NCBI GenBank assembly: GCA_016218575.1
Contig: JACRDN010000008.1
Coordinates: forward strand, 1-46,144
Direction of reading: 5' to 3'
Source: Elusimicrobiota bacterium
GTDB lineage: Bacteria; Elusimicrobiota; Elusimicrobia; UBA1565; UBA9628
Length of the DNA: 46,144 nucleotides
Every line of letters begins with the position of its first letter. The first letter of the stretch is position 1. Shown piece by piece: positions 24,991 to 46,144 of this stretch. Under the pieces are notes generated by a model, which saw nothing but the letters and a program-made list of their open reading frames with translations, was not told the DNA's origin and searched no databases. The position numbers were made by a program, and so were the translations under genes.

Positions 24991-24993
24991 CGT

Positions 24994-27954: not shown

Positions 27955-28688
27955 GACTGCTCCACCCCAGCGCAAAAGCGCGCCTTTACGTCCTCCAGCA
28001 TGGGCTCGCAAAGAGCCGGGCTTGCACCCATCAGCAGGCGGCAATACGCCGATTCTCCGCAGAGCTTCAAATCGCGGGCGTCGTAGGCCCGGTGGTAGGT
28101 CGCAAGATCCTGACATCTCCTGGGGAAAGGCGGCGGGAGGAGGCGCGGGCATACCGCTGGGTCCTCGCCCCGAGCGTAGAGGAGCCTGCCAACGCAATCC
28201 TCGAGATCGGGGGCATAGCGGTAATAAGGGAGAAGCTCCGAGCAGGCCGCGCGCGGATCTCCCCCGGATCGGAAATAGCGGGCCACGATCGGACAGGCCT
28301 TGCGAAAGGTTCCCGCCTTGAAGGGGCCTCCGTCGCTCGGAATGCGGTGGGAGTTCTCGCGCAGGCAGGCCTCGAGGACCTGGGCGCCGCGGGTGATCCG
28401 CTCGCGGTCGAACATCCAGAGATAGCAGTCTCTTTTGCAGGAGTAGACCAGCGGAAACGGCCATGGTTTTGGAGAACGGCCGGAAGCCTTTCGGTCCAGG
28501 GGGGCCAACTCCTCGCAGATATTGGGGTTGTCGAGAGTGAATGCCCGGCAGGCGAGGTAGAGCCGCGCGTACTCGGCGAGCTCAGGCGCGCGAGCCAAAG
28601 CCTTCTCCAGGGAAAATTCCTTGCGGCAGGCCGCCTCCGGTTGGGCAGCAGCGGCAAAGGCGGCGACGAACAGGAAGCTCAGTGGCAA
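27951..28688 (-). CDS. Secreted cysteine-rich helical protein, unknown function
   Basis: 245 aa starting at TTG 28688, which has a strong GGAGGAG five nt upstream; the residues that follow (PLSFLFVAAFAAAAQPEA) form a signal peptide. The mature protein has about 15 cysteines in repeated units resembling D-[PA]-x-x-C-x-x-L (for example DPRAACSELL and DPAVCPRLL), each probably a helical hairpin. The same type of unit occurs in the C-terminal domain of the MauG-like peroxidase encoded immediately upstream (10-bp overlap), so the two proteins share a domain and probably a compartment. I recognise no named family. It overlaps queC downstream by ATGA. Confidence 0.65.
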   Translation of the reverse strand: MPLSFLFVAAFAAAAQPEAACRKEFSLEKALARAPELAEYARLYLACRAFTLDNPNICEELAPLDRKASGRSPKPWPFPLVYSCKRDCYLWMFDRERITRGAQVLEACLRENSHRIPSDGGPFKAGTFRKACPIVARYFRSGGDPRAACSELLPYYRYAPDLEDCVGRLLYARGEDPAVCPRLLPPPFPRRCQDLATYHRAYDARDLKLCGESAYCRLLMGASPALCEPMLEDVKARFCAGVEQS

Positions 28689-30496
28689 AGCTTCTCCTCC
28701 AGGCCTCGGCTGATGGCCGCGGCCAACTCCATCCCGCGGCCCGCCAGGGCCCGGCAGACGTCCGAGTCTGCGCAGACTCCCGCGTCGCCCGAGGCGATCG
28801 CCTTGCGCGAGAGGGCGATGCCCCGGCAGCGCTCGGCATAGAGATCGAAAGTCCCCCTCAAACCGTCGCATGCGGAGGCCTCTCCCTCGTACGCCTTAAA
28901 GCCCCTGGCGCAGGCCCGCACCTGGTGCGGGCCGTAGTAGCGGGGGACCAGGCTTGGGCAGACAGCCGAGGGACTCTCCATATTCTTCTCCAGAAGCCCG
29001 CACAAGAATTCGGCGTCGTTCGGACCCATCGTCGGTTGGCGGCTCAGGGAATCACGGCATATTCGAGGGAAGTCTTCTGTTCGTCCCGCCAAGGCCCGCG
29101 CGAAGGCCATCTCATGATACCATTCCCGGCAAGCCTCGTCGTGCGGGACGGATTGGCCGGTGAAGACCTTCCGGAAGGGGGCCAAGGCCGAGCAGACCCT
29201 GGGATCCCCCTTGGCCAAGGCCAAATAGCGGAAATAAAGCGCGGCCCGTGGCAAAGCTAGGTCATTGAAAGCCCTAAGGCTCTCCTGCTCCCATGGCGGC
29301 GGAGAGGCTTCTCTCAGAAGAGCCTCCACGCTGAAGGGATGGGGGCATGTCAGAGCTTTCCTTAATAAAGAAGGCCCGGGAGAGTTGCCGTTATGGGCGA
29401 CCCCTTGATGAGCCGCAGAAATTCCCCCTGCCGTTGCATGCGGGCGTTCCTCAAAGCTCGGCGCCGGCAGCTGCGGCACGACGGCGGGCTTTGGAGGTGT
29501 TGTGAGGGCCTCGAGGAACGCCACCAGAAACTCCTTTTCCTCGGCGGAAAGCCCCAGGGGCTTTATGGCGGGATCCCGGCCTTGGGCCTCGTCGCCGCCG
29601 CGGTCGTAGAAATCCACCACCTCCCTCAGAGTGCGCAGGCTGCCATCGTGCATGTAGGGCGCGGTTAGAGCAGCGTTGCGCAGGGAAGGGGTCCGGAAAG
29701 CGGCCCTGCTGGCCGGCCCCGGCAGGACGGCGGAGCGCCCCTCGTCCGGCATCGGGGATTTTAATCCGATATTGTGAAAATTGCCGTCCGAGAAGTCCGG
29801 TGTCGCGTGGCAGCGCAGACATTGGGCCTTCCCAGTGAAAAGCACGAGACCCCGGGCCACGGCCGGCTGCATGGGCGCGCCCTTCTCATGGAAGCGGTCG
29901 AATGGGCTGTCCGGCTCCTGCTCCAATGAAGCCACGAAAGCCTCGAGGGCGCGCGCGGCGAGGGCGGGAAGATTTTCCTTGCGCCCGTAAAGCCTATCCA
30001 GACCTCGGGCGTAGAACGGGATCGCCCTAAGCTTGGAGTCCAAAGCCTCCAAGCCCTGGTTCATCTCCTTTGGGTTGCGGATGGCGCTCAGGACGGCTTC
30101 GCTGATGCTCTTGGCTCGCCCATCCCAGAAGAGCAGCTTGCTGTAGTGGACGTTGAGCAGGCTCGGAGTGTTGCGCGGACCCTCCTGGTGGTTGAAGCCT
30201 TTGGCCCTGGGCAAGCCGTCCGACCAGGCCAGGCCGGGCTGATGGCAGGAGGCACAGCTCACCGCATTGTTGACGGAAAGCCGCGGATCGAAAAACAGCT
30301 GCTTGCCGAGCTCGACCTCCTCGGACTTGGCGAGGGTTTTGCGGCGCAGATACGGGAAAAAAGCGTCTATCTTGTCGAGGGCCGCCCCCAATTCTTCAGG
30401 GCTTGGGAACGCTGCCTCGCGGCCCTCTGCCGCGCCGGCAAGACCCATAGAGAGAAAGAATACCCCGCTCCAGGCCCTGCGCTTAAAACTGGACAT
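28679..30496 (-). CDS. MauG/cytochrome c peroxidase-type diheme protein with Cys-rich C-terminal domain
   Basis: 605 aa with a signal peptide (about residues 1-24). Residues 35-355 are a di-heme cytochrome c peroxidase/MauG domain with CASCH (81-85) and CLRCH (226-230), plus the family segments LGKQLFFDPRLS, RNTPSLLN and FRTPSLRNAALTAPYMHDG. Residues about 375-605 form a separate domain rich in cysteine and charged helices, related to the protein encoded downstream. The MauG domain reduces peroxide or performs long-range oxidation of a partner protein; the fused domain may be that partner or a docking module. ATG at 30496 overlaps the end of the small upstream gene. Heme attachment would depend on ResB/CcsA. 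Confidence 0.85.
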   Translation of the reverse strand: MSSFKRRAWSGVFFLSMGLAGAAEGREAAFPSPEELGAALDKIDAFFPYLRRKTLAKSEEVELGKQLFFDPRLSVNNAVSCASCHQPGLAWSDGLPRAKGFNHQEGPRNTPSLLNVHYSKLLFWDGRAKSISEAVLSAIRNPKEMNQGLEALDSKLRAIPFYARGLDRLYGRKENLPALAARALEAFVASLEQEPDSPFDRFHEKGAPMQPAVARGLVLFTGKAQCLRCHATPDFSDGNFHNIGLKSPMPDEGRSAVLPGPASRAAFRTPSLRNAALTAPYMHDGSLRTLREVVDFYDRGGDEAQGRDPAIKPLGLSAEEKEFLVAFLEALTTPPKPAVVPQLPAPSFEERPHATAGGISAAHQGVAHNGNSPGPSLLRKALTCPHPFSVEALLREASPPPWEQESLRAFNDLALPRAALYFRYLALAKGDPRVCSALAPFRKVFTGQSVPHDEACREWYHEMAFARALAGRTEDFPRICRDSLSRQPTMGPNDAEFLCGLLEKNMESPSAVCPSLVPRYYGPHQVRACARGFKAYEGEASACDGLRGTFDLYAERCRGIALSRKAIASGDAGVCADSDVCRALAGRGMELAAAISRGLEEKLCH

Positions 30497-30632
30497 AGCG
30501 AAACGGACCGACAGGGTTTTGCAGGGCCAGGTAGACGACCGCGGCGGCGGCCGCGGCGAGGGCCAGCAGGGCAAGCCCCCACCATGCCCTGAGCCGCCAG
30601 AGAAAGGAGAAGACTTTTTTCAGGATTTCCAT
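30483..30632 (-). CDS. Small membrane protein, DUF5989-like
   Basis: 49 aa. It has a charged N-terminus (MEILKKVFSFLWRLRAWW), one membrane helix (GLALLALAAAAAAVVYLAL) and a terminal NPVGPFRYVQF resembling the PFIYTLF ending of DUF5989 proteins. Such proteins are often encoded next to SGNH hydrolases and membrane acyltransferase or carbamoyltransferase genes. Here it starts eight nt after the SGNH hydrolase stop and overlaps the peroxidase start by 14 nt. There is no Shine-Dalgarno, so coupling to the upstream gene is likely. Function unknown. Confidence 0.7.
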   Translation of the reverse strand: MEILKKVFSFLWRLRAWWGLALLALAAAAAAVVYLALQNPVGPFRYVQF

Positions 30633-31652: not shown

Positions 31653-33776
31653 GTGAAGAAGCTGATCGTAGCGGCCCTACTTCTCTCCCGCGGCGTCGGA
31701 CAAGCTCTGGCCCAGGCAGTCAACGACCCGATTTCGCGGCGTTATTATTACGAGGATATCTTTGAACCGTTCTTCTCGCCCGATAAAGACAACCCCGAAA
31801 TTTACCGTTCCCGACGTCCGGGAGCGGCCAACGGCTCCTTCCCCATCCGTAAGGGCAAGGACGCCTTTCGGATTTTCATCCTAGGAAGCTCCATCGCCAA
31901 GCTCTTCGGGGAAAGCCGCGAGGGAGGCTTTCGGGAAATGCTGGGGAAAGCCTCGCCCTTCAAAGAGATAGAGCTCCTTAACTGCGGGATGAGCGGCTAC
32001 GACAGCTTCCGGACCCTAATGCTCGAATCGGAGGTTCTCGCCTATTCTCCGGATCTCATCGTCATCCTCATGGGATTCACCGAAGCCGCCGGCACGCCCC
32101 CGGTCCCCCTGTGGCTGCTCAAGGTCCAGGATCGCCTATCCCGGCTCAAGGCCTACCAAGCGCTCCTCGATAAATTTTCCGCCGGTCCCCCCTCGCGGCC
32201 TTACGCCGAGATGGAAGCGGCCTTCGGCGCCAACCTCCGCCAGATGCTCCGCCAGGCCCGCCTCAAGGGAGTCCCCGCGGTGGTGGTAGTGCCTCCCCTC
32301 AATTACAGGGACGCCCCCCCGACCGGACCTGCCCCGGCGGACGAACGCTTCGTGAAGGGCTGGGTGCTCCACCTTCAAGGCCGGCATCGGGAGGCGGCCG
32401 CCGAGCTAAGGCTCTCGGGTTCCGCTCTGGGCCTCTTCTATGCCGGGAGATCTGAGGAAAGGCGCGGCCTTGCTGAAGACGCCCGCAGGGACTACGAACG
32501 CTCCATTGACCTGGACCGCAAACCAGACGACCTGCGCTGTGGCTCTTCCTGCCGGGGGCTTATCAAGCGCGTTTCGCGCGAGGAAGGAGCCATTTTGGCG
32601 GACGCCGACGCCCTGTTCAAAAGGAAGGCATTTCCGGGACTGCCGGGCCTCGACATGTTCGACGACGCCGTTCACTGGAAGAGCCCCTGCAACGCCCTGG
32701 TCTCGGCGGCCGTTATCGAGAGCATGGGAAAGAAGCCGGAGATGAAATCGCTCGAGGCTTGCCCCGGTGCCCGGGGAAGCTGGACCACCCTTGAATACGC
32801 CTTCAACCAGATCTCCGCGCCGAACCGGCGATCCTTGTCGCACCGGGCCGTCGTCTTCCTGGAGGCGTCCCTCGGGAAACGGACCGAGCCTGAAGCGCTC
32901 CCCGCCTTGGTGAAGAGGGCCGCGGCGAGCGCCGCGGCCAACGCGGGGCCCTGGGGAGCTCCCGCCGTCAATACAGATCCTTCCCTTTTTTACTGGCATT
33001 TGGGCGAGATCGAATCCCTTCGCGGCAACCTTCAGGAGGCTGGCCGCTTCTACTCCAGAGCCCTGGCCTTGAATCCCGCCCTTCCCCGCCTATGGGCAAG
33101 CCAAGCCGTCGCGCTGGCCTTGCTCCGGGATCGCGACGGCGCGCGCCGGAGCTTCACCGAGGGATTGGCCCGCGCCCGAGGCCCTGGGAGAGAAGAGGAG
33201 TCCCGACATATCCGCGCGGCTATGAGAGCCCTGGGATTGGAGCAGTCTCCGAGAACACCGCCGGCCGCGCCGCGCCACCTAAAAAAGAGCTCGGCGCCGC
33301 GCCTTCAACCCTTCTGGACCGCGCAGGCCTACTCCGCGCTGAGGGCGAAAAACCGGCGGCTGGCCCTCGAGTTCCTGGCCAAGGCCATGAGCTCGGCCCG
33401 CGCCCCCGGGGACCTGCACGCCGCCGCCTTGGGCTACCAGGAGGCGGGAGACCTAAAGACCGCCCTGCGTCTCTTGAATGGGCTCGCCCGCCGCGCGCCG
33501 CCGCGCGCCGAATATCTCAAGGATTTGGGGATATGCCTGTACCGTAGCGGGAATGTCGCGGAAGCAATTAAAAGCCTGGAAGCCGCGGTCAGGCTCGACC
33601 CGGAGGGGCCGCAAGCCCTGATGAGCCTCGGCTCGATATACCAGTCCCAGGGGCGCCTAAGGCAAGCCCTCAAGCTCTACGACTCGGCCCTGGCGGCGGG
33701 GCTCGGGGGCAAGGAGCTCAATGCCAGGATTCGAGACAGCCGGAAAGAAATACTTTCTCTGCCGCGCAAGCCCTGA
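31653..33776 (+). CDS. Exported SGNH-like domain protein with C-terminal TPR repeats
   Basis: 707 aa with a signal peptide (MKKLIVAALLLSRGVGQALA). Residues 60-350 look like a divergent SGNH fold: ILGSSIAKLFGES replaces GDS by GSS, ELLNCGMSGYDSFR matches block II, and MFDDAVHWKSPCN supplies the Asp and His of block V. A TPR-like insert (about 230-285) interrupts it. Residues 430-700 carry several TPRs, such as GEIESLRGNLQEAGRFYSRALALNPALP and later copies. It may be a catalytically altered or carrier-binding SGNH protein. GTG at 31653 is set by the signal peptide. It is divergent from the canonical SGNH gene, suggesting co-regulation. Its end forms a terminator hairpin shared with the next gene. 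Confidence 0.75.
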   Translation: MKKLIVAALLLSRGVGQALAQAVNDPISRRYYYEDIFEPFFSPDKDNPEIYRSRRPGAANGSFPIRKGKDAFRIFILGSSIAKLFGESREGGFREMLGKASPFKEIELLNCGMSGYDSFRTLMLESEVLAYSPDLIVILMGFTEAAGTPPVPLWLLKVQDRLSRLKAYQALLDKFSAGPPSRPYAEMEAAFGANLRQMLRQARLKGVPAVVVVPPLNYRDAPPTGPAPADERFVKGWVLHLQGRHREAAAELRLSGSALGLFYAGRSEERRGLAEDARRDYERSIDLDRKPDDLRCGSSCRGLIKRVSREEGAILADADALFKRKAFPGLPGLDMFDDAVHWKSPCNALVSAAVIESMGKKPEMKSLEACPGARGSWTTLEYAFNQISAPNRRSLSHRAVVFLEASLGKRTEPEALPALVKRAAASAAANAGPWGAPAVNTDPSLFYWHLGEIESLRGNLQEAGRFYSRALALNPALPRLWASQAVALALLRDRDGARRSFTEGLARARGPGREEESRHIRAAMRALGLEQSPRTPPAAPRHLKKSSAPRLQPFWTAQAYSALRAKNRRLALEFLAKAMSSARAPGDLHAAALGYQEAGDLKTALRLLNGLARRAPPRAEYLKDLGICLYRSGNVAEAIKSLEAAVRLDPEGPQALMSLGSIYQSQGRLRQALKLYDSALAAGLGGKELNARIRDSRKEILSLPRKP

Positions 33777-34229: not shown

Positions 34230-36758
34230 CTACAGCCTCTCCAGGACGTTCAGCCAGCGCGGGTAGAAATCCTCCAGGCTCGGGTAGCGCTCCCGAGAGG
34301 CCTCGTACTCCTCAAGGCCCTTCAACACCGGACCCAGGAAGGCGTAGCCCGAGCGCAGGTAGGCCCGTTCGATTTCCTCGGCCGCCCCGGCTCCCTCTTT
34401 TTGCCTGAGCAGGCGGCAGCTGGGTGCCAGGACCAGATGCTCGGAAAAGCAGTCGAGCCACCCCGACCTGCGCGCGTGCCCGGAGATCCGGGCATGAAGC
34501 CGCGAGAAATTTCCGATTCGTTCGGCGTATTTTTCCGCCCAAGCGTCCATGACCGCGTGGGAGAGCTCGTGCCAGGCCTTGGCTTGGAAGAGCGGCCTTG
34601 AGACCGGGCTGATCCCGTCCCAGAGCCCCGCCTCCGGGTCCGACGGGCAGATGACGGTCCAGCTCTCGGCTCTTCCGCCCGGCCTTTGCGCCTGGTCGCT
34701 GTAGGAGGTCCTGAAGGCCAGGGGCGAGACCATCACGATGAAGTCCGCCTTGACCTCGACTCCAAGGTAGCATGAAAGGCCGGCCGAATAATCTTCTCCC
34801 GCGAGGGCCTCCCTCACGGGAGCCGCCCAGCGCGACAGGCGCTCGCGCCACGGGTCGAAGAACTCCAGGAAGCGGGAGCGCTCCGCCAAGGAGCGCAGGG
34901 CGCCGAGAAGAGCCGCGTCCCTGCCGTTGGGACCCGGAACCGCCGCCCACTCGAGCCTGGGCAAGGCAGAGGCCTTGAGAAGGGTTCCGGCCACCTGAAA
35001 CCAACGGAAGGCCGCTGGCTCCTGCAGCGATCCGCGAACCGCGGCCAAGGCGGGGTCCCCGGAGAACGCCGCGAATCTCCTGCGCGACTCCCGCGCGTAC
35101 TCGAGGACGTCGGGGGAGGACTTCTCCAAAAAAGCCGGCAAGGGGCCGGGTTCGATAAGTCCTTGAACCGCAGCCAAAAGCTCGATGCGCGCGTCCACGG
35201 AGACGATGGGCCTGGCCTTGAGCCTCAGGGCTTCCTTAAAAGAAGCCAAGGCCTCGTCCAAGCGCCCGGCTTGGCGAAGGTTGGCGCCGCGCAAGGCCAG
35301 AAGTGCCGCGGCCGCCTCGCGCGCATCCTCCCGAAGAAGCTGAGCAGGCAAGGGCAGGCTCTCCCAGACTCGGCCGGCTACTTCCGGGCCGGCCTCGTCT
35401 ATGAGCTCGCCGTAGGTCCCTCGCCAATATTGGGGCGAGACGCTGATTTTCTCGTAGTATTGGCGCAGGTCCTCCTCCTGGCCTACGGCATCGCCTTGGC
35501 GTCCCCGGAGGGCCGCCCGGGCCTTCAACAGCTCCCCGTTTCCGGGGCCGATCTTGAGGCCTTCATCGTACGAGGCCAAAGCCTCGTTGGAGCGCCCCAG
35601 GGCTTCCAGGGCCCGGCCGATGAAGAAATGTATCTCGGGAAAACGGTCATTAAGTTCGGCGGAGCGCTTGAAATCCACCAGGGCCGGCTCGGGCCGGCCC
35701 CGCTCCAGCCTCAGGCATCCCCGCCAAAGGAAGGCCTGCGGATAATCGGGGCGCTCGGCCGCGGCTTGATCCAGGTCTTTCTCGGCTTGGTCGAGATCCC
35801 CGAGTCGGCGCGCCGACTCCCCCCGCCAAGCCAACGCCCAGGCGCGCCGCTTGCCGAGCTCGCCCGAAAGGGCGCGCTCCAGGTCCTGGCGCGCCCCGGC
35901 GAAATCGCCCAGCTTGAGGCGCGTCTGCCCCCGCCAGGCCCGCGCCCAGACGGCCTCCGGGTGCTCGGCAAGGCACCCATCGAGAAGTCCGTTCGCCTCC
36001 AGCAGGGCCTTTTCATCCTTGGGCATCTTGCCCTGGACCCACTCGCAGGTGGGGTTGAGGTCGCAGGCGCGGTTGACGTCCTCGACCGCGCCCAGGATGT
36101 CTCCCAGGCGGCGGCGAATCAGGCTTCTCTTGAGGAAGGCCCATTCCTCCTGCTGCGAGAGCTCGATGGCCTTGTCGAGATCGTCCAGGGCCTCGTCCAA
36201 GCGCCCGAGCCGGGCCTGGCAGACGCCGTGGCCGATGTAGGCCCAATCGTAATTCTGACGGCAGGCGATGGCCTTGTCGAAATCCGAGACCGCGGCCTCC
36301 AGGCGCCCCAGCTTTTCCTGGGCCTGGCCGCGCAGTTTGTAGTACTCGGCGCATTCCGGGGCCAGGCCCACGGCCCGGTCGAGGCTTTCCACCGCATCGG
36401 CGAAACGCCCAAGGGCGCCCAAGGCGGTCGCCAGCCAAAAGTGCCCCTGAGGCTCCTCCGGGTGGAGCGCGATCCCGCGCGAGATTTCCGCCGCCGCGTC
36501 CTCGTAGCGGTTGGCCACCCGCTTGACGAAACCCCGGAATATCATCAACGCTCCGCATCTGGGATGCGCCAGGAGCGCCTCGTCCAGGGGCCTTAAATTC
36601 TCCGCCGCGGTCTTGTAGCGGACGATGCCGGTCCTGGCCTTCTTCAGCGTTTCGTGGACCCGACGCGCGGCCTTGGCCGCGTCTTTGGGCATGAGCTTAA
36701 TGATGCGCTCGGCCCCCTGCTCGGAGTTCTGGACCGAGGCCCGGGAGAAAATTTTCAT
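34230..36758 (-). CDS. TPR protein with C-terminal HExxH metallopeptidase-like domain (DUF4932-like)
   Basis: 842 aa, no signal peptide, so probably cytoplasmic. Residues 60-480 are about nine TPRs. A metallopeptidase-like domain begins at ARIELLAAVQGL (about 523). It has WHELSHAVMD (His730, Glu731, His734) and a later FSEHLVLAP whose Glu773 fits the third zinc ligand of a gluzincin. It ends with the family tail EEYEASRERYPSLEDFYPR. This tail, the D-x-[RK]-x-E-L-[LV] opening and the HExxH...EH spacing recur in three other proteins of the operon. The opening resembles DUF4932 proteins, a label from memory. ATG at 36758 overlaps the upstream stop (ATGA); longer extensions would read into the neighbouring gene. 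Last gene of the polycistron. Confidence 0.78.
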   Translation of the reverse strand: MKIFSRASVQNSEQGAERIIKLMPKDAAKAARRVHETLKKARTGIVRYKTAAENLRPLDEALLAHPRCGALMIFRGFVKRVANRYEDAAAEISRGIALHPEEPQGHFWLATALGALGRFADAVESLDRAVGLAPECAEYYKLRGQAQEKLGRLEAAVSDFDKAIACRQNYDWAYIGHGVCQARLGRLDEALDDLDKAIELSQQEEWAFLKRSLIRRRLGDILGAVEDVNRACDLNPTCEWVQGKMPKDEKALLEANGLLDGCLAEHPEAVWARAWRGQTRLKLGDFAGARQDLERALSGELGKRRAWALAWRGESARRLGDLDQAEKDLDQAAAERPDYPQAFLWRGCLRLERGRPEPALVDFKRSAELNDRFPEIHFFIGRALEALGRSNEALASYDEGLKIGPGNGELLKARAALRGRQGDAVGQEEDLRQYYEKISVSPQYWRGTYGELIDEAGPEVAGRVWESLPLPAQLLREDAREAAAALLALRGANLRQAGRLDEALASFKEALRLKARPIVSVDARIELLAAVQGLIEPGPLPAFLEKSSPDVLEYARESRRRFAAFSGDPALAAVRGSLQEPAAFRWFQVAGTLLKASALPRLEWAAVPGPNGRDAALLGALRSLAERSRFLEFFDPWRERLSRWAAPVREALAGEDYSAGLSCYLGVEVKADFIVMVSPLAFRTSYSDQAQRPGGRAESWTVICPSDPEAGLWDGISPVSRPLFQAKAWHELSHAVMDAWAEKYAERIGNFSRLHARISGHARRSGWLDCFSEHLVLAPSCRLLRQKEGAGAAEEIERAYLRSGYAFLGPVLKGLEEYEASRERYPSLEDFYPRWLNVLERL

Positions 36759-37825
36759 GGGGAAGCGGCGAGGGCCTTCATCTCGTCCACGAGCCTCGGG
36801 AAGAAGGATTGGAAGTTGGGATAACGCGCCTTTTGGATCTCGAACTCGACCAATCGGGAGGCCAGAGCCTTCACGTAGGCTTGCGCCGGAGACTGCGGGA
36901 GGGGTATATCCCGGCCCAGGAGGCGCTTGCTTATGCGCAGGCTCAGCGCGGAAATGACCAAGTGCTTGGCGCAGGCCTCCCAGGAGGGCGGGCAATCCCG
37001 GGCCGCCGGCCCGTAAAGGGCCGAGAGCCCCTTGATCTTCTCCTCCGAGTCGACAAATCCCCATTCCACGGGGATATACAAGGGCTTATAGCCGTCTCCG
37101 TCCTGGAAGAAATCGCCGAGGCCGAAATAAGGCCGACCGTCCCGGATATTCGGCAGGCCGTGAATGGTGAAAACCGAGAAAGGCCCCTTGCCCTTTCTTC
37201 CCGGGCCCTGGTAGGGGTAGGGCCATATGAAGGAAGTGAAGCGGCTGCGGCTGTAGAGAAGGGGAAGGATGACGGTCATGCGGCAGTCAAGATCCTGGCG
37301 CAGGTATGATTGCATCAAGGCCAAATAGTCCGTCCCGTCCAGCTCCTGGCGGGCCAAGCTCTCGTAGCGCGCGTAGCCCCTGGAATGCTCGCGGTAAAAT
37401 TCCATGAACTTGGAGGCCCTGGCGAAATCGCGCATTTCCACGAGGAAGCTCTCGACCGCTCCGATTCCTCCGAGCGACTCAATGAAGCCCTGGGGGAGTC
37501 TGGCGCGCGGAACCTTCCAGGCCAGGACCGGGGGCTCGGTTAAAAAGAAAAAAATGATGCCGAAGGCCTCCTCGCTCGGGCGCCTCGAGGCCGCGGCCGC
37601 ATAGGCCTTCACGGCGGGATGCGAGCGAAAAGCCGCGAAGCGCTTTCGAACCAAGGACGGCTCCGGATAGATTCCCTCCGACGACTCCCCCAGCCCCGCT
37701 AGGCGCTGGACCGCGCCCAGAAGCTCGAAGCGGGGATCGACGGCGACGGAGAGATTCGAGCTCCCCCAGGCCGCGCCGGAGCGCGCCAGGAGAAGAAAAA
37801 GGGTCACTTTCCGGCGCAGGCCCAA
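36755..37825 (-). CDS. Degenerate paralogue of the operon's HExxH metallopeptidases (predicted pseudoenzyme), exported
   Basis: 356 aa from TTG 37825, which has GGAGG seven nt upstream and gives a proper signal peptide (MGLRRKVTLFLLLARSGAAWG). GTG at 37807 is an alternative that overlaps the upstream stop. The family opening is VDPRFELLGAVQRLAG (29-44) and the tail VEFEIQKARYPNFQSFFPR is present. Where paralogues have HExxH, this protein has PVEWG (252-256), and the third-ligand Glu is Lys287 (AKHLVISAL). All three zinc ligands are therefore lost while the fold markers remain, suggesting a binding, regulatory or substrate role. Confidence 0.72.
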   Translation of the reverse strand: MGLRRKVTLFLLLARSGAAWGSSNLSVAVDPRFELLGAVQRLAGLGESSEGIYPEPSLVRKRFAAFRSHPAVKAYAAAASRRPSEEAFGIIFFFLTEPPVLAWKVPRARLPQGFIESLGGIGAVESFLVEMRDFARASKFMEFYREHSRGYARYESLARQELDGTDYLALMQSYLRQDLDCRMTVILPLLYSRSRFTSFIWPYPYQGPGRKGKGPFSVFTIHGLPNIRDGRPYFGLGDFFQDGDGYKPLYIPVEWGFVDSEEKIKGLSALYGPAARDCPPSWEACAKHLVISALSLRISKRLLGRDIPLPQSPAQAYVKALASRLVEFEIQKARYPNFQSFFPRLVDEMKALAASP

Positions 37826-38436
37826 AGCTCGTCCTCCGTGAACTTAAGCTCCGAAACCCTGCGATTGAGGAGGAGAAACGAGAGCAAGGAGGAATGCCCG
37901 GCGAACGGCGCTGAAATGTCGAGAGCAAGGAAGGAGGGCCAGGACAGGGGCTCGGCGAAGCGAACAGCCCACCAATCCGCCGAGCGCGCCATGCTCGCGA
38001 CCGGATGCAGGCGGTGGAGGGCCGCGAAGGCCGCCTTGAGCTCCGGGTGACCCATCATCCCGGGAGAGAAGGCGCGGTCTTGGCCGGCGGACTTGGCGGA
38101 AAGAACGGACCCCGAAACAAAACGGTCCGCGGCTGGGTCCCATACGAGCTCGAGCCAAGGAAAACCTGGCGCGGGGGCGCAGCACCTGGGGCCCATTTTG
38201 GAGAGCCCCAGGACCCGGGCGGCAGCGGCAGACCAGGAGGCGTAATTCTCCGATCCGCCTCCATAGCGAAAGCCCAGTTTTTTTGCCGGCCCGATGCTCG
38301 ACAGCATCAGCTCCCAAGAGCCCTCACGGCAAACCTCGTCCAATCGTCCGAGGAAAGCCTTCAACTCCCCGCATTCCAGCGCCGGAAAGGATTCAAGGAG
38401 GGCTCTCAGCCACTCGTCTCGCTCGACCCGGTTCAA
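37804..38436 (-). CDS. Unrecognised 210-aa protein paired with the HExxH hydroxylase-like enzyme
   Basis: 210 aa, no signal peptide or membrane helix. I recognise no family. Notable features are a CC pair (GPRCCAPAPG, about 102-105), a Trp/Phe-rich second half (SADWWAVRFAEPLSWPSFLALDISAPF) and a helical N-terminus. ATG at 38436 overlaps the stop of the alpha-ketoglutarate-HExxH-like gene (ATGA) and its own end overlaps the next gene by 22 bp, so it is made together with both. It could be a substrate, a partner subunit or a substrate-recognition protein for that enzyme; nothing in the sequence decides this. Confidence 0.65.
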   Translation of the reverse strand: MNRVERDEWLRALLESFPALECGELKAFLGRLDEVCREGSWELMLSSIGPAKKLGFRYGGGSENYASWSAAAARVLGLSKMGPRCCAPAPGFPWLELVWDPAADRFVSGSVLSAKSAGQDRAFSPGMMGHPELKAAFAALHRLHPVASMARSADWWAVRFAEPLSWPSFLALDISAPFAGHSSLLSFLLLNRRVSELKFTEDELWACAGK

Positions 38437-39803
38437 GCCGCCGCCTCCACGGAGAGCGGCGCGGCCGCCGCCGCGCTCCCTCCAGGGCTCAAGAACGGCG
38501 CGCGGCCCACTTTGTCCTCGAACTCCGCGCTCTTGTGGAATCCCGTGTCGAACAAGGAGTGCTCCTTGCGGTGCTTCAAGCAGTTTTCCCGGGCCTCATC
38601 CACCAGGGCCGGTGGAAACCACTGCATGCCGTGGAACAGGAACCCTAGCTCCCTCCACATCCCCAGGAGGAATTCCCGGCCGAATTCGGTAAAGGCCCCG
38701 TAGAAAGCCAGCGAGCGCAAGGCCGTTTCGACCTGGAAGAGGCGTTGGGCCACGTTGAGCATGGAGTCCACCGATGCCTTCTCTCGATAGGAAGTGTTCG
38801 AAACCGCGCTTAGAAGATATCCGGCCACGTTCAGGAAGGCGTGCGCCCCCAGGAGAAGCCCGCGCAGGCGGCGGGCGTCCGGCCTCCACGGGGAATAGAA
38901 AACCTGACCGCCCTGTCCCGGCAGAAGCAGGGGCTCGGCCACGAGGAGCTGATTTATTTTTTGGTGGCAGAACTCATGGATCAAGGTCTCGGCCTGGAGC
39001 AGGGGATCACCCGAATGCGACAGGCAGATGGCCCCGCGCAAATTCACGTAGGAGGAGCTGACACTGCCAAAACCCATCGAGTTCTCAAGCGGTATGATCA
39101 CTCGAACCATGTCCCGAAATTCCCCGAAAAGGCCCGGAGCTCGGGCTTCCATGTCGGAAAGGGCCTTTCGCAGCGCCGCGCAAAACCGCTCGCGCGCCTC
39201 CCCCTCCGGATGGGCCAGGCCGTGCATGGTCACCCCATGGGCGATAAGCCAGGCCCGATCCTCAAATTCAATGCCGGGAAGGATCTCCTCGCAAGGGCGG
39301 GCGGTCTTGCCACCCGCCTCGAGCCGGCCCTTTCCAAGGGCAAGCGGCACCGTCTTGCCGGCCGCGGAGGCGGGATAATCCAGGCGCAGGGGGCTGCCGT
39401 ACAATGCGAGCCGGCCGGAGGGATCCACCAGGCCCTCCAGGCGCAGGGAGGCGCCCCGCTTCAAAGCCAAGGCGGCCGCGAATCCCTGGAACAATCCGAA
39501 GTGCAGGCTCCAATCCTCCGGTCCGCGGGGAGCGGCGGCGAAGTGCTTATCCCATAGAAAGAGCCAATAATCCAGGGCCGGGTGGGAGAGGATGGCGTCG
39601 CGCTCGGGGCCGGAGCTTTCGATGACGTAGGAAAGCCCGCGCAGGTAGGCGCGTTTAAAGGCCGCGGGCGGAGCCCTTCTGGGATAGTCCTTGGCCGCGG
39701 CCTTGAGCCCGGCCAGGGCCTCGCGGGTCCGGCGCCGGAAAATCCATTTCCATTCCGGAGTGATTCCACCCCCGTAAATCCAGGATTTCTCGTTGAGCCT
39801 CAT
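38433..39803 (-). CDS. alpha-Ketoglutarate HExxH-type peptide beta-hydroxylase homologue
   Basis: 456 aa, cytoplasmic. Residues 260-330 carry the family hallmark: ETLIHEFCHQKINQLL (HExxH at 276-280), then YSPWRPDARRLRGLL (303-317) and GAHAFLNVA, closely matching the HExxH...APWRxDPRP...GVYAF pattern of the aKG-HExxH peptide beta-hydroxylases, formerly called HEXXH-containing putative peptide modification proteins (TIGR04267). Known members modify ribosomal peptides. Here the usual GVYAF is GAHAF. No precursor peptide is evident next to it; its partners are peptidase-like proteins and the 210-aa protein. ATG at 39803 overlaps the upstream stop (ATGA). A much longer in-frame extension lies within the neighbouring gene and is low-complexity, so it is rejected. 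Confidence 0.78.
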   Translation of the reverse strand: MRLNEKSWIYGGGITPEWKWIFRRRTREALAGLKAAAKDYPRRAPPAAFKRAYLRGLSYVIESSGPERDAILSHPALDYWLFLWDKHFAAAPRGPEDWSLHFGLFQGFAAALALKRGASLRLEGLVDPSGRLALYGSPLRLDYPASAAGKTVPLALGKGRLEAGGKTARPCEEILPGIEFEDRAWLIAHGVTMHGLAHPEGEARERFCAALRKALSDMEARAPGLFGEFRDMVRVIIPLENSMGFGSVSSSYVNLRGAICLSHSGDPLLQAETLIHEFCHQKINQLLVAEPLLLPGQGGQVFYSPWRPDARRLRGLLLGAHAFLNVAGYLLSAVSNTSYREKASVDSMLNVAQRLFQVETALRSLAFYGAFTEFGREFLLGMWRELGFLFHGMQWFPPALVDEARENCLKHRKEHSLFDTGFHKSAEFEDKVGRAPFLSPGGSAAAAAPLSVEAAA

Positions 39804-41206
39804 AGGATCAGGGACAGGACGTGGCGCCCAAGAAGGCATGTTATAAAATAACCCAGGAAAATCCAATGCGAGAAAGCCATGGTCGTGGCCAACGGCACGG
39901 TCTCGATGCCGTGAGAGGCACACCAGGCCTTGAGCGCTACCACCTGCTCCTCGGTCAAGCCGTCGGCGTAAGGCGCGGAGAAATGCTCCGCGTGGAAGTC
40001 CTCGTCCTGCGCGAGCTGGGAGAGAAAGCTGTGGTGAAGCACCATGTAGGAAAGGATCTTGTCCCTGGGAATGTCGGGATGGTCCTCGTTGTCCCAAGCC
40101 CGCACGAAGGTCCAGGTGAGCCCGAAAAAAACGCCGAGACACGCCAACGGAAGGAATTGGAGGGCCCAGGCCAAAACCGGCCCGGCTCCTAAAAATGAGG
40201 AGAAGCGGGAGGCAAGCCCCCGGGGGATCAGCCCCATCAGAAGCCCCACGAAGGGCAAGGCCAGCATGAGGACCTGGCCCGCCATCAAGCCCACCGTCCA
40301 TTTGATCCCAAGCTGGAGAAACAACGAGAAAACCGCCAACGCCCCAAAAGCCCTCCACAGCTCCGGACCCAGGAACTCCGGGCGCCGGATCGCGAGGAAT
40401 ACGATGAGGAAGACGGCCGGAATCCAGCCGTAAGTCCGCCCTATGAGGGAGCGCAGGCGGTTGGCCAGGTAGAGGACCGCAAAACAAAACAGGGTCCTCA
40501 GGAGCGCCGATCCCAGGAAATCCTTGACCGCGCAGGAAAGCGCGGCCATGACGACCATGGAGAGCACCCAGCCGCAGGCCTTGAGGAGCACCGCCCCGGG
40601 GTTTTGGCGGGCCCAGGCGCAGTCCTCCCGGGCCTCGCCTAGAGCGCCGAGCAGGACTTCCCGGGATTTCTCCCGGACGTAGCCGAGCCACCGCCGCAGG
40701 CCCATCTGGGCCCAGAACTCCTTGATGTGCCTGAGCCTCGTCCTCCAGACATGGCGCGCGGCCTGAAGAAAAATCGCAGCACAGGCCGGCAGGAAGATAT
40801 TGATCAGCACCGAAAGGAAGAGCCATCCGGACTGGAAGGAGGAGGAGACCTTCATCATGGGGTAGACCGCGGCCAGGAAGAGGAAGAGCTTCGTGTCGCC
40901 GGCCGGCCATATCCTGGCCCACCACAGGGCCATGGCCGCGACGGCCGTGCTGGCGAGATACCCCCCCAGGTCCGAGTAGAAATTCCAATGGTAATAGACG
41001 GAGACAAGCCCCCTCTCTCCCAAGGCCGTGCTCGCCAGCATCAGGGCGTAGCAGACCAGAGCGAATTTCAGGCCGAAGGCCAGATGCCGGTGGCGTATCT
41101 TGCGCTGCTTGTAGTCCGAGGCCGCCACCAGGCCCCACAGGCCGAGGAAAATAGCCCAGGATAGGGCTTGGATCGCCGAAAGGAGGAAGCCGTTCTTGAA
41201 CGCCAT
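39800..41206 (-). CDS. Prepilin-peptidase-like (A24-type) polytopic membrane protein
   Basis: 468 aa with roughly ten or more membrane helices. The N-terminal part contains the two aspartate motifs of A24 peptidases: AASDYKQRKIRHRHL (Asp after helix 1) and WPAGDTKLFLFLAAV (the GD-x-K motif). The remaining 300 residues are further helices and an extracellular or cytoplasmic tail (EDHPDIPRDKILSYM... then AEHFSAPYADGL) with no family I know. It may be an intramembrane aspartyl peptidase that trims exported peptides, or a transporter-like fusion. ATG at 41206 overlaps the upstream stop (TGATG) and its stop overlaps the hydroxylase start. No pilin genes are nearby. Confidence 0.65.
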   Translation of the reverse strand: MAFKNGFLLSAIQALSWAIFLGLWGLVAASDYKQRKIRHRHLAFGLKFALVCYALMLASTALGERGLVSVYYHWNFYSDLGGYLASTAVAAMALWWARIWPAGDTKLFLFLAAVYPMMKVSSSFQSGWLFLSVLINIFLPACAAIFLQAARHVWRTRLRHIKEFWAQMGLRRWLGYVREKSREVLLGALGEAREDCAWARQNPGAVLLKACGWVLSMVVMAALSCAVKDFLGSALLRTLFCFAVLYLANRLRSLIGRTYGWIPAVFLIVFLAIRRPEFLGPELWRAFGALAVFSLFLQLGIKWTVGLMAGQVLMLALPFVGLLMGLIPRGLASRFSSFLGAGPVLAWALQFLPLACLGVFFGLTWTFVRAWDNEDHPDIPRDKILSYMVLHHSFLSQLAQDEDFHAEHFSAPYADGLTEEQVVALKAWCASHGIETVPLATTMAFSHWIFLGYFITCLLGRHVLSLIL

Positions 41207-42195
41207 CAGGCCCCCCGCACTCGCCTCAAGAGTTCGATGATCCTGGGATAGAAATCGGCCAGGCAAGGATATCGCCCGCGCGCGGCCTCATACTCCTTGA
41301 GGATCTCGTAAACCGGGCCGATCAAGGCGAAGCCTTCCTTTTTCTCCCGGGAAAGGCAAAGCAGGCCCTCCTCCTCCCCGCGCCTGGCCGCGGCCAGGCG
41401 CGCGGTGATGGCGCGGATCACGTGCTCATCGACCATGTGAAGCCAGCCGGGCGGCCCCTGGTATTTGTTCTTGGCGGTGCCGCTCATCAGGGCGTAAAGG
41501 CCGGAGAGGGGCTCCAAGGCTCCGCGGTGCGACTGCGTGACGCGGTCCACCAAAGTATGGCAGACCTCGTGCCAGGCGTTGATCAAGATGTCGGGCTTAA
41601 GCTCCGCCCGGGGGCGGCCGTTTTCCACGCGGCTGTGCCCGGAGATGGTGTAGATATCCCAGGAGCCGTCCGCCCCAGGGTGGAGCACATTGTGCATGGC
41701 CCAGCCGTGATACAGGGGCGAGAGGATGAAATGATAGCGCACGGTCGAGCGCATCCCCAAATAATCGAAGACCGGAGCCTCTATATCCAACCGGTTCAGC
41801 GACTCCCGCAACGGCTCGAGCAGCGATTCGTAAAAGGGCCTCTCACTATCGAAAAATTTCTGGAAGCCCCCCTCCCGGCAGAATGCGCGCAGCGCGGGCA
41901 GAAGCCGGCTCACCGGATCCTGGCCGGCCTGGCGGCCGTAGTGGCCCGCGGAAACGGACACCTCGAGGGCGGGAGGCGGGCTGAAGTCCAGGATAACCAA
42001 GGCGGGGTGGCGGTGCCTCCAATCTCCCGGCCCCATGGCGCCAAAAAGCCGGCAGGCCTCGTGCTCTCGTCCGAGCGCGGAGGCGCGTTCCCAATACCCA
42101 CTCGGGCCGCAGGCGGCGCAGGGTCCAGCCTCGGCCAGGCCTTCCAAAACCGCCACCAGCTCCACTTTGGGGTCTACCTCCAAAACCGCCGGCAT
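41206..42195 (-). CDS. HExxH metallopeptidase-like protein (DUF4932-like)
   Basis: 329 aa, no signal peptide, so cytoplasmic. It opens with VDPKVELVAVLEGLAEAG, carries WHEVCHTLVD (His209, Glu210, His213) and VDEHVIRAI with Glu257 as the likely third ligand, and ends KEYEAARGRYPCLADFYPR. These match the paralogues in the same operon. It lacks the TPRs of two siblings, so it represents the bare catalytic domain. It is probably a zinc peptidase; no substrate is known. ATG at 42195 overlaps the TPR gene stop by one base (TGATG). The reading frame extends far upstream with Gly/Pro/Arg-rich sequence that is antiphase TPR coding, so that is rejected. Confidence 0.75.
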   Translation of the reverse strand: MPAVLEVDPKVELVAVLEGLAEAGPCAACGPSGYWERASALGREHEACRLFGAMGPGDWRHRHPALVILDFSPPPALEVSVSAGHYGRQAGQDPVSRLLPALRAFCREGGFQKFFDSERPFYESLLEPLRESLNRLDIEAPVFDYLGMRSTVRYHFILSPLYHGWAMHNVLHPGADGSWDIYTISGHSRVENGRPRAELKPDILINAWHEVCHTLVDRVTQSHRGALEPLSGLYALMSGTAKNKYQGPPGWLHMVDEHVIRAITARLAAARRGEEEGLLCLSREKKEGFALIGPVYEILKEYEAARGRYPCLADFYPRIIELLRRVRGA

Positions 42196-44303
42196 CAGAG
42201 CGCCCTTCCGGCCGGCCGGGCCCTGTCCGCCGCGGCCCGTAAGGCGTCGAGGAGGCGCCGGCCCCGCGGCCCCAGGGCCGCGGCGGATAGGCCCCGCGCC
42301 AAGGCCAGGGCCTTTCGCGAGAATCCAGCGCGGAAAGCCGCCTCCACCAGCGCCAGGCGGCCCTCCGCCTCCAGGCCCGAGCGCGGCCGCCACAGGACGG
42401 GAAGCGTCCAGCGCGTCCAGAGGCAGAAAATCGCCGCGGACTCCGGGTGCCTGCGGCAGGCCGACAAGACCTCTTGGGCGCATCCCGAGAAATTTCCCAA
42501 GGCCCACAGGGCCGCCGCCCGGCCGAGGCGCACGGGGATGTATGACGGGCGCAGGGCAAGCGCCCGGTCGGCCTCGACCAAGGCGCGCTCGAAATCCCCC
42601 GTCCCGCGGCAGGCATCGCTCGCCCAAGCGCGAGCCAGGAACGAGTCGGGGGAAAGCTCCAAGGACTGGTCGAGGACGGCCAGAGCCTCCCGCGCGCGCC
42701 CGGCCATGAGGCGCGAGCGCCCCAGCCAAGCCAGGGCCAAGGCCCTGCGCCGCGGCTCCCGGTCGGCCACGGAGCGCAGCTTAGCCTCGCTCAGCACCAC
42801 GAGGCCTCCTCCTGGGATGGACCGCAAGGCTGGGACGGCTTTCTTGAGCCGCTTCCAGTCCCGCGGGCCGGGAGGGCGCGCGCGCATGCGCGATCGCTCG
42901 GCCGAGAACGCCTCGGCCGCTGGATCGCGGACCAGCCAGTCGAGGGCGCTGTGGAGCAGGGCGTCCGAGAATGAAAGCTCGACGCAGAGCGCTATATCCT
43001 CGAGCGGCCGGCCGGAGTCCGAACCTTCCCACTCGAGGAAAGCGCGGCGCCGGTAAAAAGAGGGCCGGGGCAAAGCCTCCAGGCATTTCGACATGTCCGC
43101 CGCCGCGCCCGCCAAGTCGCCCGACTCCTCCCTAAGCATGGAGCGCCAGGCGAAGGCGAGCCTGTACTCTGGATCCAAGGAAACCGCGAGGTCCAGATCC
43201 TCCAGGGCCTCCTTTTTGCGGCCTAGGCGCTTGAGCACCTCGGCTCTCCAAGCGCGGATCCAGCCCGACTCGGGCTCGAGCGCCGCGGCCCGATCCATCT
43301 GCGCTAGGCCCTCTCTTGGGTCCTCCAAGGGACTGGCCTCGGGGCGCTGGCCGCTCAGCGCCCGCCCCAAAAAAGCTCTGACCCAGGCCCTGCCGGGCTC
43401 TCCTTCCAGCGCCCGGCGCAAAGGCGCGATTTGGAGGTCGCTGGCTCCCAGGATCGCGGCTCGGATCGCGCAAGCCCAAGAGGCCGAGGCCTCTTGGGCT
43501 GAGAGTGTGTCCAGGCCTTGCAGAAGGATCTGGTTTTCCAGCCCCTTCTCCATAGGTCCCCTCATCCCGAAAGCCAGGTAGAGTATCCTTACGAAGCCGT
43601 CCAAATTCTCCGGATGGAGGGTGATCGCCCGATGCGCGTCCTCCACTGCCGCGGCCCGGTCTCCCATTCTCCATGCGGAGCTCGCCCTCAAGGAATAGAT
43701 GCCCGGGCAGCGCGGGTGGCTCTTGGCCACCCGCGAGAAATCCCGCCGGGCTCCGTCCGGATCATGCTCGCGCTCCCGGAGCATCCCCCGCGCGATCAGG
43801 GCGCAGGCAAGCTCCGGAGCGAGCTCGACGGCCTTATCGAGGCAAACCGCGGCCGGGCTGTTTCGGCCCAAGGAGAAAAGCGCGAAGCCTTTCCATAAAT
43901 GAAAGGGACCGGCTCCGGGATCGAGCTCCAAGGCCTTATCGAAATCCTCGGCGAAGCCGGCCGAGCCGGCGCTGGCCTTAAGCTCCCCGCGGAAGGCGTA
44001 GGCTGTCGCGAGCTTCGGATCGAGGGCCGCGGCCCTGTCAAGGTCCGAGAGCGCTCCCGTCGCGTCCCCAAGGATGCGGCGCACCCTGCCCCGCGCCGCC
44101 AGCGCGCGCGCGGAGGGCGGAGAGTCGCCCTCCGCGGAGAGAAGAAAGAGGGCCTTTTCGTAGACTTGCCTCCTGTAGCGGCCGTGCTCGGGCAGAAAAA
44201 ACTCCCGAAGGAATCGGATGTCTCCCGCGACCGCCGGACAGTCCCATAGGAGGTCGAGCCACTTCTGGCCCTCCAGCAGAGCGAGGGCCTTGTCGAGCCT
44301 CAT
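42195..44303 (-). CDS. Large TPR-repeat protein
   Basis: 702 aa, cytoplasmic, almost entirely tetratricopeptide-like repeats. Examples are ALSDLDRAAALDPKLATAY, EDFDKALELDPGAGPFHLW, EALEDLDLAVSLDPEYRLAF and ALVEADRALALRPSYIPV, about 12-14 units in all. It is probably a scaffold or adaptor, since TPRs are also fused to two of the metallopeptidase paralogues. ATG at 44303 (MRLDKALALLEG) overlaps the upstream stop as ATGA; an in-frame ATG at 44342 would lie further inside the previous gene. Two perfect hairpins are embedded in its coding sequence (43483-43510 and 43711-43735). Confidence 0.82.
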   Translation of the reverse strand: MRLDKALALLEGQKWLDLLWDCPAVAGDIRFLREFFLPEHGRYRRQVYEKALFLLSAEGDSPPSARALAARGRVRRILGDATGALSDLDRAAALDPKLATAYAFRGELKASAGSAGFAEDFDKALELDPGAGPFHLWKGFALFSLGRNSPAAVCLDKAVELAPELACALIARGMLREREHDPDGARRDFSRVAKSHPRCPGIYSLRASSAWRMGDRAAAVEDAHRAITLHPENLDGFVRILYLAFGMRGPMEKGLENQILLQGLDTLSAQEASASWACAIRAAILGASDLQIAPLRRALEGEPGRAWVRAFLGRALSGQRPEASPLEDPREGLAQMDRAAALEPESGWIRAWRAEVLKRLGRKKEALEDLDLAVSLDPEYRLAFAWRSMLREESGDLAGAAADMSKCLEALPRPSFYRRRAFLEWEGSDSGRPLEDIALCVELSFSDALLHSALDWLVRDPAAEAFSAERSRMRARPPGPRDWKRLKKAVPALRSIPGGGLVVLSEAKLRSVADREPRRRALALAWLGRSRLMAGRAREALAVLDQSLELSPDSFLARAWASDACRGTGDFERALVEADRALALRPSYIPVRLGRAAALWALGNFSGCAQEVLSACRRHPESAAIFCLWTRWTLPVLWRPRSGLEAEGRLALVEAAFRAGFSRKALALARGLSAAALGPRGRRLLDALRAAADRARPAGRAL
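43483..43510. other. 13-bp perfect hairpin inside the TPR gene
   Basis: AGCCCAAGAGGCC and GGCCTCTTGGGCT pair perfectly across a 2-nt loop. A second (CGCGGGTGGC, 5-nt loop) is at 43711-43735, and a third (GCCCGGCCC, 3-nt loop) is at 44456-44476 in the next gene. All are fully within coding sequence. Confidence 0.6.
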
Positions 44304-45874
44304 TTGCGCAGCCCGGCCTGTATCTGCCGCCGACGCGACCACCAGGAAGGAGCCGCGCGCAGAGCCTCCTCATAATCGCGCCGCGCGTTCTTGAACTGCT
44401 TCAAGCCTTCCCAAAGAGCGGCCCTGGTCGAGAGGGCCTCGGCCAACAGCAACGAGCCCGGCCCTTGGGGCCGGGCGAGCGCTATGGCCCGGCCGGCGCT
44501 TTCCATGGCCTCTGCCGAGCGGCCGAGGCGCTGCAATGCCACGCTGCAGTTAAGATGCGCCTCCGCGTCCCCTGGCGCTGCGTCGCGCACGCGCATGAAA
44601 TCCTTGAGCGCCTCCGCCGCCTCGCCGCGCAGGAACAGCCAGACCCCGCGGGCCTTGAGCTCTGAAACCGAAAGCTTCTCGCCCGCGGCGGCCGAGGGTG
44701 GGGACAGGGGAGGAACCGGCTCACGGGAGGCGCGCGCGCCCTTGCGGCACTCCGAGTTGGCGGGTTCGACCGCGTAAGCCTCGGAAGGCCGCGGCGGCCG
44801 CGGCACGGCCTTGCCGTGAATTTCCTTGGCCCGCGCCAGCTCCGCGAAGGCTTCCAAGAGCTCGGGGTAGAAGTCATTCAAGGTGGGATAGAGGTCGCGC
44901 CGGGCTTCGTAATCGGCCAGCCTGTCGATGACGACCTGCAGGTAAGGCAGTTTTTCCTCCTGCTCGGCCGTGGGGTGCCAGACATCCTCCTTCGTCCTGC
45001 CGGCGCGCTTGGCCCAGGCCAGCATGCGCCAGGCGACACCCTGCGCCACGTGCTCGCGCAGGCACTGAGCCCAGAACCCGTAGCAGTGATCGGCGACGGG
45101 CGCAAATAGAGCGCTCGTCGCCTGCACCTCTGCCGGGAAATCCCGCAGGCGCCGGTCGAGCAAAGTATGGGAAAGCTCGTGCCAGAGGTCCCAGCGCCGG
45201 TTCCAAAACTGGAATTGTGGTATCCCGGAACGGATCTCCGTGGGGCCGAGCGTGGCGAAAATAGAATGACCGGCCTTCCCGTCCTCCGAGCATTCGATAT
45301 GATTCATGTTCCCCTCCTGCCGCGGACCGCGCAAAGGGCAGAGCATCATCGAATAGCGGGCGCGCACCTCAAGGCCGGAATACTCCTCAAGCATGGAGGC
45401 ATAGTCCCGGTCCTTCATCTCCGAGACGACCTCGCCCACCAAACTCCGGTACAGGGGGCGGTGGGAGTTGAAGAATTCCATGAAGCGGCAGTCTCGGGCG
45501 AAGGCCTTGAGGAGCGAGACGAGCCTTTCCACCTCGGAGGGAAGCTCGTGCTTAGTCGCCAACTCCGGAGGATCGCCCAAGTCCAGCATCATCCGTTGGG
45601 CGCCCACGGCGTCCAAGCCCGCGAGCCTGGCGCGCCGGTACGCCTCGACCGCCGGATGTCCCCGGAGCCTCCAGAAACGCCTCCGGACCTCGCGGGCATA
45701 GTCCGAGTCGTTTAGGGCAAAGCCGTCGAGACCCGGAACCTCTCCGGCCAGGACGTGGACGACGGCCAAGAGCTCGATGCGGGGGTCGAGGCTCACCGAC
45801 GGGTATGGAAACGACCTCTCCCCGGCTACGGCCGAGGAGCAAAACCAAGCCAACACGGCGATAAGCATCTTCAT
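44300..45874 (-). CDS. Exported HExxH metallopeptidase-like protein with C-terminal TPRs (DUF4932-like)
   Basis: 524 aa with a signal peptide (MKMLIAVLAWFCSSAVAG). The peptidase-like domain opens LDPRIELLAVVHVLAG (29-44) and carries WHELSHTLLD (His232, Glu233, His236) and LREHVAQGV with Glu274 as the likely third zinc ligand. The domain tail is ADYEARRDLYPTLNDFYPE. A Pro/Ser linker (about 360-395) leads to two or three TPRs (about 400-515). It should act outside the cytoplasm, unlike its signal-less paralogues. ATG at 45874 has GGAGG six nt upstream. It is the first gene of the eight-gene polycistron and begins 18 bp from the repeat element, whose inverted repeat provides TATTAT at 45909-45914 as a possible -10. 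Confidence 0.8.
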   Translation of the reverse strand: MKMLIAVLAWFCSSAVAGERSFPYPSVSLDPRIELLAVVHVLAGEVPGLDGFALNDSDYAREVRRRFWRLRGHPAVEAYRRARLAGLDAVGAQRMMLDLGDPPELATKHELPSEVERLVSLLKAFARDCRFMEFFNSHRPLYRSLVGEVVSEMKDRDYASMLEEYSGLEVRARYSMMLCPLRGPRQEGNMNHIECSEDGKAGHSIFATLGPTEIRSGIPQFQFWNRRWDLWHELSHTLLDRRLRDFPAEVQATSALFAPVADHCYGFWAQCLREHVAQGVAWRMLAWAKRAGRTKEDVWHPTAEQEEKLPYLQVVIDRLADYEARRDLYPTLNDFYPELLEAFAELARAKEIHGKAVPRPPRPSEAYAVEPANSECRKGARASREPVPPLSPPSAAAGEKLSVSELKARGVWLFLRGEAAEALKDFMRVRDAAPGDAEAHLNCSVALQRLGRSAEAMESAGRAIALARPQGPGSLLLAEALSTRAALWEGLKQFKNARRDYEEALRAAPSWWSRRRQIQAGLRK

Positions 45875-45891
45875 TGGGTCCCTCCAGGCGC

Positions 45892-46144
45892 TAAGGCCCT
45901 GTCAAGTAATAATATGATCAATTTGGCCGAGCGCTTTTGGAGCGAGACAAGGAGCAAGGAGCGAGCATACCCGCAGCGGTATGTGAGCGACGAGCGACGC
46001 AGGCGCAGCCCAAAAGCGCTCGGCCCCTTCGGGGAAGCCCGAGCTTGGCCGATTTCTTCGTTGCTCCTCGGTCACATAGCTACCGCTATGCTCCCTCGTC
46101 GCGCCTCGAACTCGCCTCAAGCTCGGGCCTCCAAATTGATCATA
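45892..46144. repeat. MITE-like palindromic repeat element (253 bases visible)
   Basis: It starts TAAGGCCCTGTCAAG at 45892. The first 35 bases are the exact reverse complement of 128-162. The outer arm GGCCGAGCGCTTTTGG (45925-45940) pairs with the sequence ending at 46025, and between them GCATACC/GGTATGT forms a small hairpin. From 46004 onward it equals bases 1-141 of the window. Each TIR carries TTGACA facing outward (here 45900-45905, minus strand). TA at the outer boundaries would suit an IS630/Tc1-like TA target duplication. It has no coding capacity that I would trust. Confidence 0.85.

Follow-up and report, generated by a model that had tools for sequence, protein, structure and literature searches.

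An Overlapping Eight-Gene Operon

The window, a stretch of 46,144 nucleotides, is the entire contig C8 of an Elusimicrobiota genome of 2.8 Mb. Eight overlapping genes run on its minus strand at 34230-45874, as set out in a preliminary description of this DNA, and all their frames are open, with no internal stops. The first, g1 (44300..45874, 524 aa), encodes an exported DUF4932 metallopeptidase-like protein with a signal-like N-terminus (MKMLIAVLAWFCSSAVAG) and C-terminal TPRs (TPR_2). It is followed by g2 (42195..44303, 702 aa), a TPR protein without DUF4932 whose matches are to TPR families only, and by g3 (41206..42195, 329 aa), a bare cytoplasmic DUF4932 protein. The middle of the operon holds g4 (39800..41206, 468 aa), an A24 (prepilin-peptidase)-like membrane protein; g5 (38433..39803, 456 aa), an alpha-ketoglutarate/iron HExxH-type peptide hydroxylase; and g6 (37804..38436), a 210-aa protein whose gene lies directly downstream of g5-type genes. 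The last two genes are g7 (36755..37825, 356 aa), which encodes an exported pseudo-metallopeptidase with a DUF4932 domain without HExxH, and g8 (34230..36758, 842 aa), which encodes a cytoplasmic protein with a long TPR array and a C-terminal DUF4932 domain. The ATGA junctions described at 44303, 39803 and 36758, the TGATG junctions at 42195 and 41206 and the 22-bp overlap of g6 and g7 at 37825 are all borne out by the sequence. The junction at 38436 had also been given as ATGA and reads TTGA, TTG being the start codon both there and for g7.

Downstream of the operon, on the plus strand, lies a gene for an SGNH-hydrolase/TPR protein (31653..33776), homologues of which immediately precede g4 in the sister genus. 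Directly upstream of g1 there is a copy of a MITE-like repeat (45885..46144, plus strand; terminal repeat at 45900), which is cut by the contig end. The element is about 230-260 bp long; its terminal repeats are GGCCCTGTCAAGTAATAATATGATCAATTTGG, and it seems to duplicate a 3-bp target, TNA. The genome contains 61 segments matching it, in dozens of copies and fragments, many of them at contig ends; further copies include C10:24224-24462 and C20:65610-65862, and one copy sits inside the His-Xaa-Ser locus of contig C10.

Live and Dead DUF4932 Proteins

The four proteins for which common ancestry had been proposed are indeed homologous: g1, g3, g8 and g7 match PF16286 (DUF4932) with 98.8, 102.1, 64.7 and 38.8 bits, respectively, all above the cut-off of 28.7 bits. 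The group corresponds to a known domain; its combination with the other genes and its expansion with conserved dead paralogues do go beyond known descriptions. Motif comparison showed that g1 (HELSH...EH), g3 (HEVCH...EH) and g8 (HELSH...EH) keep HExxH and the Glu 48 residues downstream, the ligand set of gluzincin-type zincin metallopeptidases, while the one paralogue reported as degenerate, g7, reads YKPLY in place of HExxH. An AlphaFold2 model of g3 (pLDDT 87.8) had no fold match in the PDB at E<=0.001, no sequence relatives of DUF4932 were found in the PDB, and our search of the literature on DUF4932 returned nothing relevant.

Only one other DUF4932 domain above the cut-off is encoded in the whole genome, on contig C10, so that four of them in one operon exceed what chance would give. 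The degenerate copies are not a matter of decay, because the g7-type orthologues of five genomes form one clade with full support (100/100); a second dead DUF4932 clade covers two genomes. Among the 44 genomes of the family, DUF4932 is present in ten, and nine of these ten carry a g5-type gene (Fisher p=6e-5, with related genomes counted as independent). Genomes were scored as g5-type if phmmer/jackhmmer showed a protein similar to g5 and g6 lay next to it, with the exception of G014, for which g4-g5 sufficed; where contigs are fragmented, the resulting gene lists are lower bounds. The DUF4932 genes come in several formats and numbers. In one relative, G011, four DUF4932 domains stand in tandem in a single protein of 1,924 aa, and one of the four lacks HExxH (L035:4121-9895). 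In two relatives, tandem paralogues that look phytanoyl-CoA-dioxygenase-like by eye are found near DUF4932 genes (L040:4477-5992 and L041:9505-11832). Least explained of all in this locus is the expansion of DUF4932, with dead paralogues that have been conserved.

A Conserved g4-g5-g6 Module

The hydroxylase g5 scores 95.1 bits against TIGR04267 (cut-off 40), its residues H276, E277 and H280 are conserved, and its profile matches the solved radical-SAM/HExxH enzyme 22nu and ChlH 8s5f. The residues that characterised alpha-ketoglutarate-HExxH enzymes beta-hydroxylate in RiPP precursors are His, Asp, Phe, Gln and Pro (PMC12636437, PMC13060819). When GTDB was searched with the g5 profile, 14 loci were recovered, 13 of them in Elusimicrobia/Elusimicrobiota MAGs and the 14th corresponding to a genome of the same family. 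In every one of the 14 loci g6 directly follows g5, and in most of them g4 is just upstream or close by. The genes g4, g5 and g6 therefore constitute one conserved Elusimicrobiota module, and the 210-aa protein that the preliminary description had left without assignment accompanies the hydroxylase throughout. The g6 sequence had no match among protein families, and its predicted model (pLDDT 79) had no fold match in the PDB at E<=0.001. The earlier reading had been staked on the gene set being conserved in relatives, and the module does recur in other genomes.

For g4, D31 and the motif G103-D104-x-K106 (PAGD104-x-K) are invariant among homologues, so that g4 shows both of the aspartate motifs that mark A24 leader peptidases. 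The protein itself had no match in Pfam; two of its homologues score 24.0 and 19.0 bits against PF01478 (Peptidase_A24), below the cut-off of 26.5. It also carries a conserved C-terminal domain of its own. Weak cellulose-synthase-D-like matches in the PDB, returned by the g4 profile search at E 0.1, were taken as chance.

Association of the Module with His-Xaa-Ser Loci

In distant Elusimicrobiota, g4, g5 and g6 lie inside His-Xaa-Ser (Hxs) loci. This is the case in L102, where HxsA4 is above and HxsD/HxsC are below their cut-offs, and in L104/L083, where HxsB (495 bits) and HxsD (54 bits) are both above; two further loci show part of the module in an Hxs setting (g5-g6 in L101, g4-g5 in L084). 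The window contains no radical-SAM gene, no HxsB/HxsC pair, no HxsD and no HxsA repeat precursor. Contig C10 of the same genome does encode such a locus, with an HxsA4 protein carrying GSH repeats (106 bits, cut-off 55) and paired radical-SAM enzymes, the two HxsB proteins scoring 478 and 412 bits (cut-off 370), together with an HxsD at 37.6 bits, below the cut-off of 50; there is no g4, g5 or g6 in it. A common feature of the HxsA proteins is SSEEG(K) or TSEEG(K) ahead of a hydrophobic stretch. A second Hxs-like locus of this genome, on contig C17 (C17:219001-239000; L117, G000), has an HxsA-like protein of its own, an HxsD above the cut-off and several radical-SAM genes; an A24-like gene lies about 11 kb from the HxsD.

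Co-occurrence was assessed across the 44 family genomes by Fisher tests, which count related genomes as independent: a tandem-HxsD locus is associated with g4 (p=1.5e-5) and with g5 (p=2.8e-4), and g4 with DUF4932 (p=2.9e-6). The signal is weaker when the tests are limited to the largest genus, labelled g8 in our set (p=0.015-0.25 overall; g4 with Hxs p=0.05, g5 with Hxs p=0.22, g4 with DUF4932 p=0.015). Within 15 kb of HxsD, the family has nine A24-like genes against 0.5 expected and four TIGR04267 genes against 0.27 expected. An HxsA4-type locus and g4 or g5 occur on one contig in all four genomes with long enough contigs, at distances of about 40 kb (G019), 69 kb (G030), 76 kb (G011) and 88 kb (G062). 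Two genomes, G019 and G061, have an HxsA4-type locus and no g5.

Over its final 120 bases the window matches the beginning of reverse-complemented C10 without a difference. Joining C8 to C10 would give the order Hxs - DUF4932/TPR - operon - QueC-like - acyl cluster, which is also the order seen in G030 and G062. We infer this join rather than observe it, because the overlap lies in the repeated element, which also matches the start of C17. The target-site duplication was considered as a means of deciding between the two and set aside, being TAA for both C10 and C17.

The Neighbouring Acyl Cluster

A fatty-acid/polyketide-type (type-II) cluster with a QueC-like gene occupies 19581-28464 of the window. 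The QueC-like protein (27319-28464, minus strand; PF06508, 83 bits) is a non-canonical second copy, the canonical QueC being encoded on contig C16. It keeps the ATP and zinc motifs; true QueC proteins carry YxQxHxxE and YPDC (PMC13329287), instead of which its homologues read FYARSGFYWE and GNPFAD. The cluster also includes a conserved protein of about 300 aa with no Pfam match (24046-24990, plus strand), found in 34 of the 44 family genomes, and a gene for a di-haem cytochrome c peroxidase (MauG-like; 28679-30574, minus strand) stands between the QueC-like and SGNH genes. The order in the sister genus is SGNH/TPR - g4 - g5 - g6 - QueC-like - acyltransferase.

What Does the Operon Do?

The preliminary description had proposed one pathway in which a protein or peptide is modified and processed. 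This is the best-supported idea, and the interpretation as a whole is supported in part. The accompanying claim that nothing with such content had been described was too strong, since the hydroxylase, the A24-like protein and g6 belong with the His-Xaa-Ser RiPP system; the connection had been missed because the other Hxs genes are on other contigs. Most likely, the operon with its module represents a dispersed, extended Hxs-type RiPP pathway. In the more specific form of this reading, which we hold with about equal measures of belief and doubt, the operon would supply the finishing steps of an HxsA4-type system, acting on a histidine-rich repeat peptide and standing detached from the genes for the precursor and the other enzymes, which lie elsewhere in the genome.

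The observed placement of the genes also bears on other readings. The module might have been recruited from Hxs to a new substrate encoded close by, such as an exported DUF4932 protein or the SGNH/TPR protein, leaving the Hxs link a historical one. This would fit the window and the genus g8, where the module adjoins SGNH/TPR and DUF4932 genes outside an Hxs operon, and also two genomes (G028 and G060) that carry the module with no tandem-HxsD locus detected. Both are draft MAGs, however, G060 being only 72% complete; most genomes still have an HxsA4-type Hxs locus, on the same contig wherever this is testable, and the locus yielded no other repeat peptide resembling a precursor. We regard recruitment as unlikely. 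Another explanation is that the eight genes are co-transcribed and serve two functions, the DUF4932/TPR genes forming a cluster of their own for envelope proteolysis or self-protection, which merely shares the island. DUF4932 arrays do exist away from the module (contig C103 of G033, contig C31 of G011), and G032 has DUF4932 and no TIGR04267 gene, but the module is present in nine of the ten DUF4932 genomes of the family; moreover, DUF4932 genes flank the split module of G011 (g5-g6 on C27, g4 on C65) and directly follow g5-g6 in L105. On balance, two separate functions appear doubtful.

It is also conceivable that the locus is part of the fatty-acid/polyketide-type cluster next to it and, with the QueC-like gene, makes a modified lipopeptide or nitrile. 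The gene order g4-g5-g6-QueC-like-acyltransferase in genus g8 and the presence of the same cluster in the window would agree with this idea. Against it, the cluster occurs in 34 of the 44 family genomes, and the QueC-like gene, which is linked to the cluster across the family, stands beside it in G002, G005, G008, G015 and G061, where the module is absent. The adjacency is therefore one of location and not of membership, and we rejected both the QueC-like gene as a part of the module and the cluster as the pathway; an acyl product is highly improbable. Finally, the hydroxylase with its partner, the A24-like peptidase, and live and dead DUF4932 proteins on both sides of the membrane could constitute a separate Elusimicrobiota maturation system for one substrate, with no tie to Hxs, which we consider unlikely.

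Returning to the Hxs-type pathway, its substrate and chemistry may be sketched from the homology, synteny and co-occurrence of the module. The radical-SAM enzymes would first modify the GSH repeats of HxsA4. Using iron and alpha-ketoglutarate, g5 would then hydroxylate beta-carbons of the repeats, His being a known target of its family, with g6 as a putative substrate-holding partner. At the inner membrane g4 would remove the leader, and the conserved LSSEEG/K, which immediately precedes the hydrophobic stretch, is a possible cleavage site. The DUF4932 proteins, cytoplasmic as well as exported, might trim the product and their dead versions bind it, and the TPR domains could act as docking scaffolds. 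The DUF4932 step is the weakest of this mechanism, and the role given to these proteins is a guess.

A link between Hxs, an alpha-ketoglutarate-HExxH hydroxylase and an A24-like leader peptidase leads to concrete predictions that can be tested at the enzyme level, namely a mass gain of 16 Da on the His repeats and cleavage of the leader at a defined site. In addition, the 210-aa g6 family probably supplies a partner for the hydroxylase. The link also places DUF4932, a conserved dead paralogue included, in a functional context, to our knowledge for the first time. The literature recognises Hxs from sequence; among the papers available we found none that describes it together with an HExxH hydroxylase, an A24-like peptidase or DUF4932 proteins, no report of an Hxs product or chemistry, and nothing on Hxs in Elusimicrobiota.

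The operon can be compared with four known systems. The Hxs system (HxsA/HxsB/HxsC/HxsD; TIGR03976-03978, NF038313) contains g4-g5-g6 in other Elusimicrobiota, whereas the operon in the window is without a radical-SAM enzyme or a precursor. With the alpha-ketoglutarate-HExxH peptide beta-hydroxylases (ChlH, PflC/PosC, PesO, BpmH; TIGR04267) g5 shares the catalytic core, HExxH and SPWRxDxR, but it differs from them in its long N-terminal region, in its constant partner g6 and in being encoded in an operon with A24-like and DUF4932 genes. Similarly, g4 shares two membrane-embedded aspartate motifs, with GDxK, with the A24 prepilin/leader peptidases (PF01478), from which it is set apart by the sub-cut-off Pfam score, by the C-terminal domain and by linkage to Hxs loci rather than to pili. 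The four DUF4932 proteins, for their part, are all above the family cut-off of PF16286, and they depart from the family as known in their TPR formats, in tandem fusions and in the conservation of inactive paralogues.
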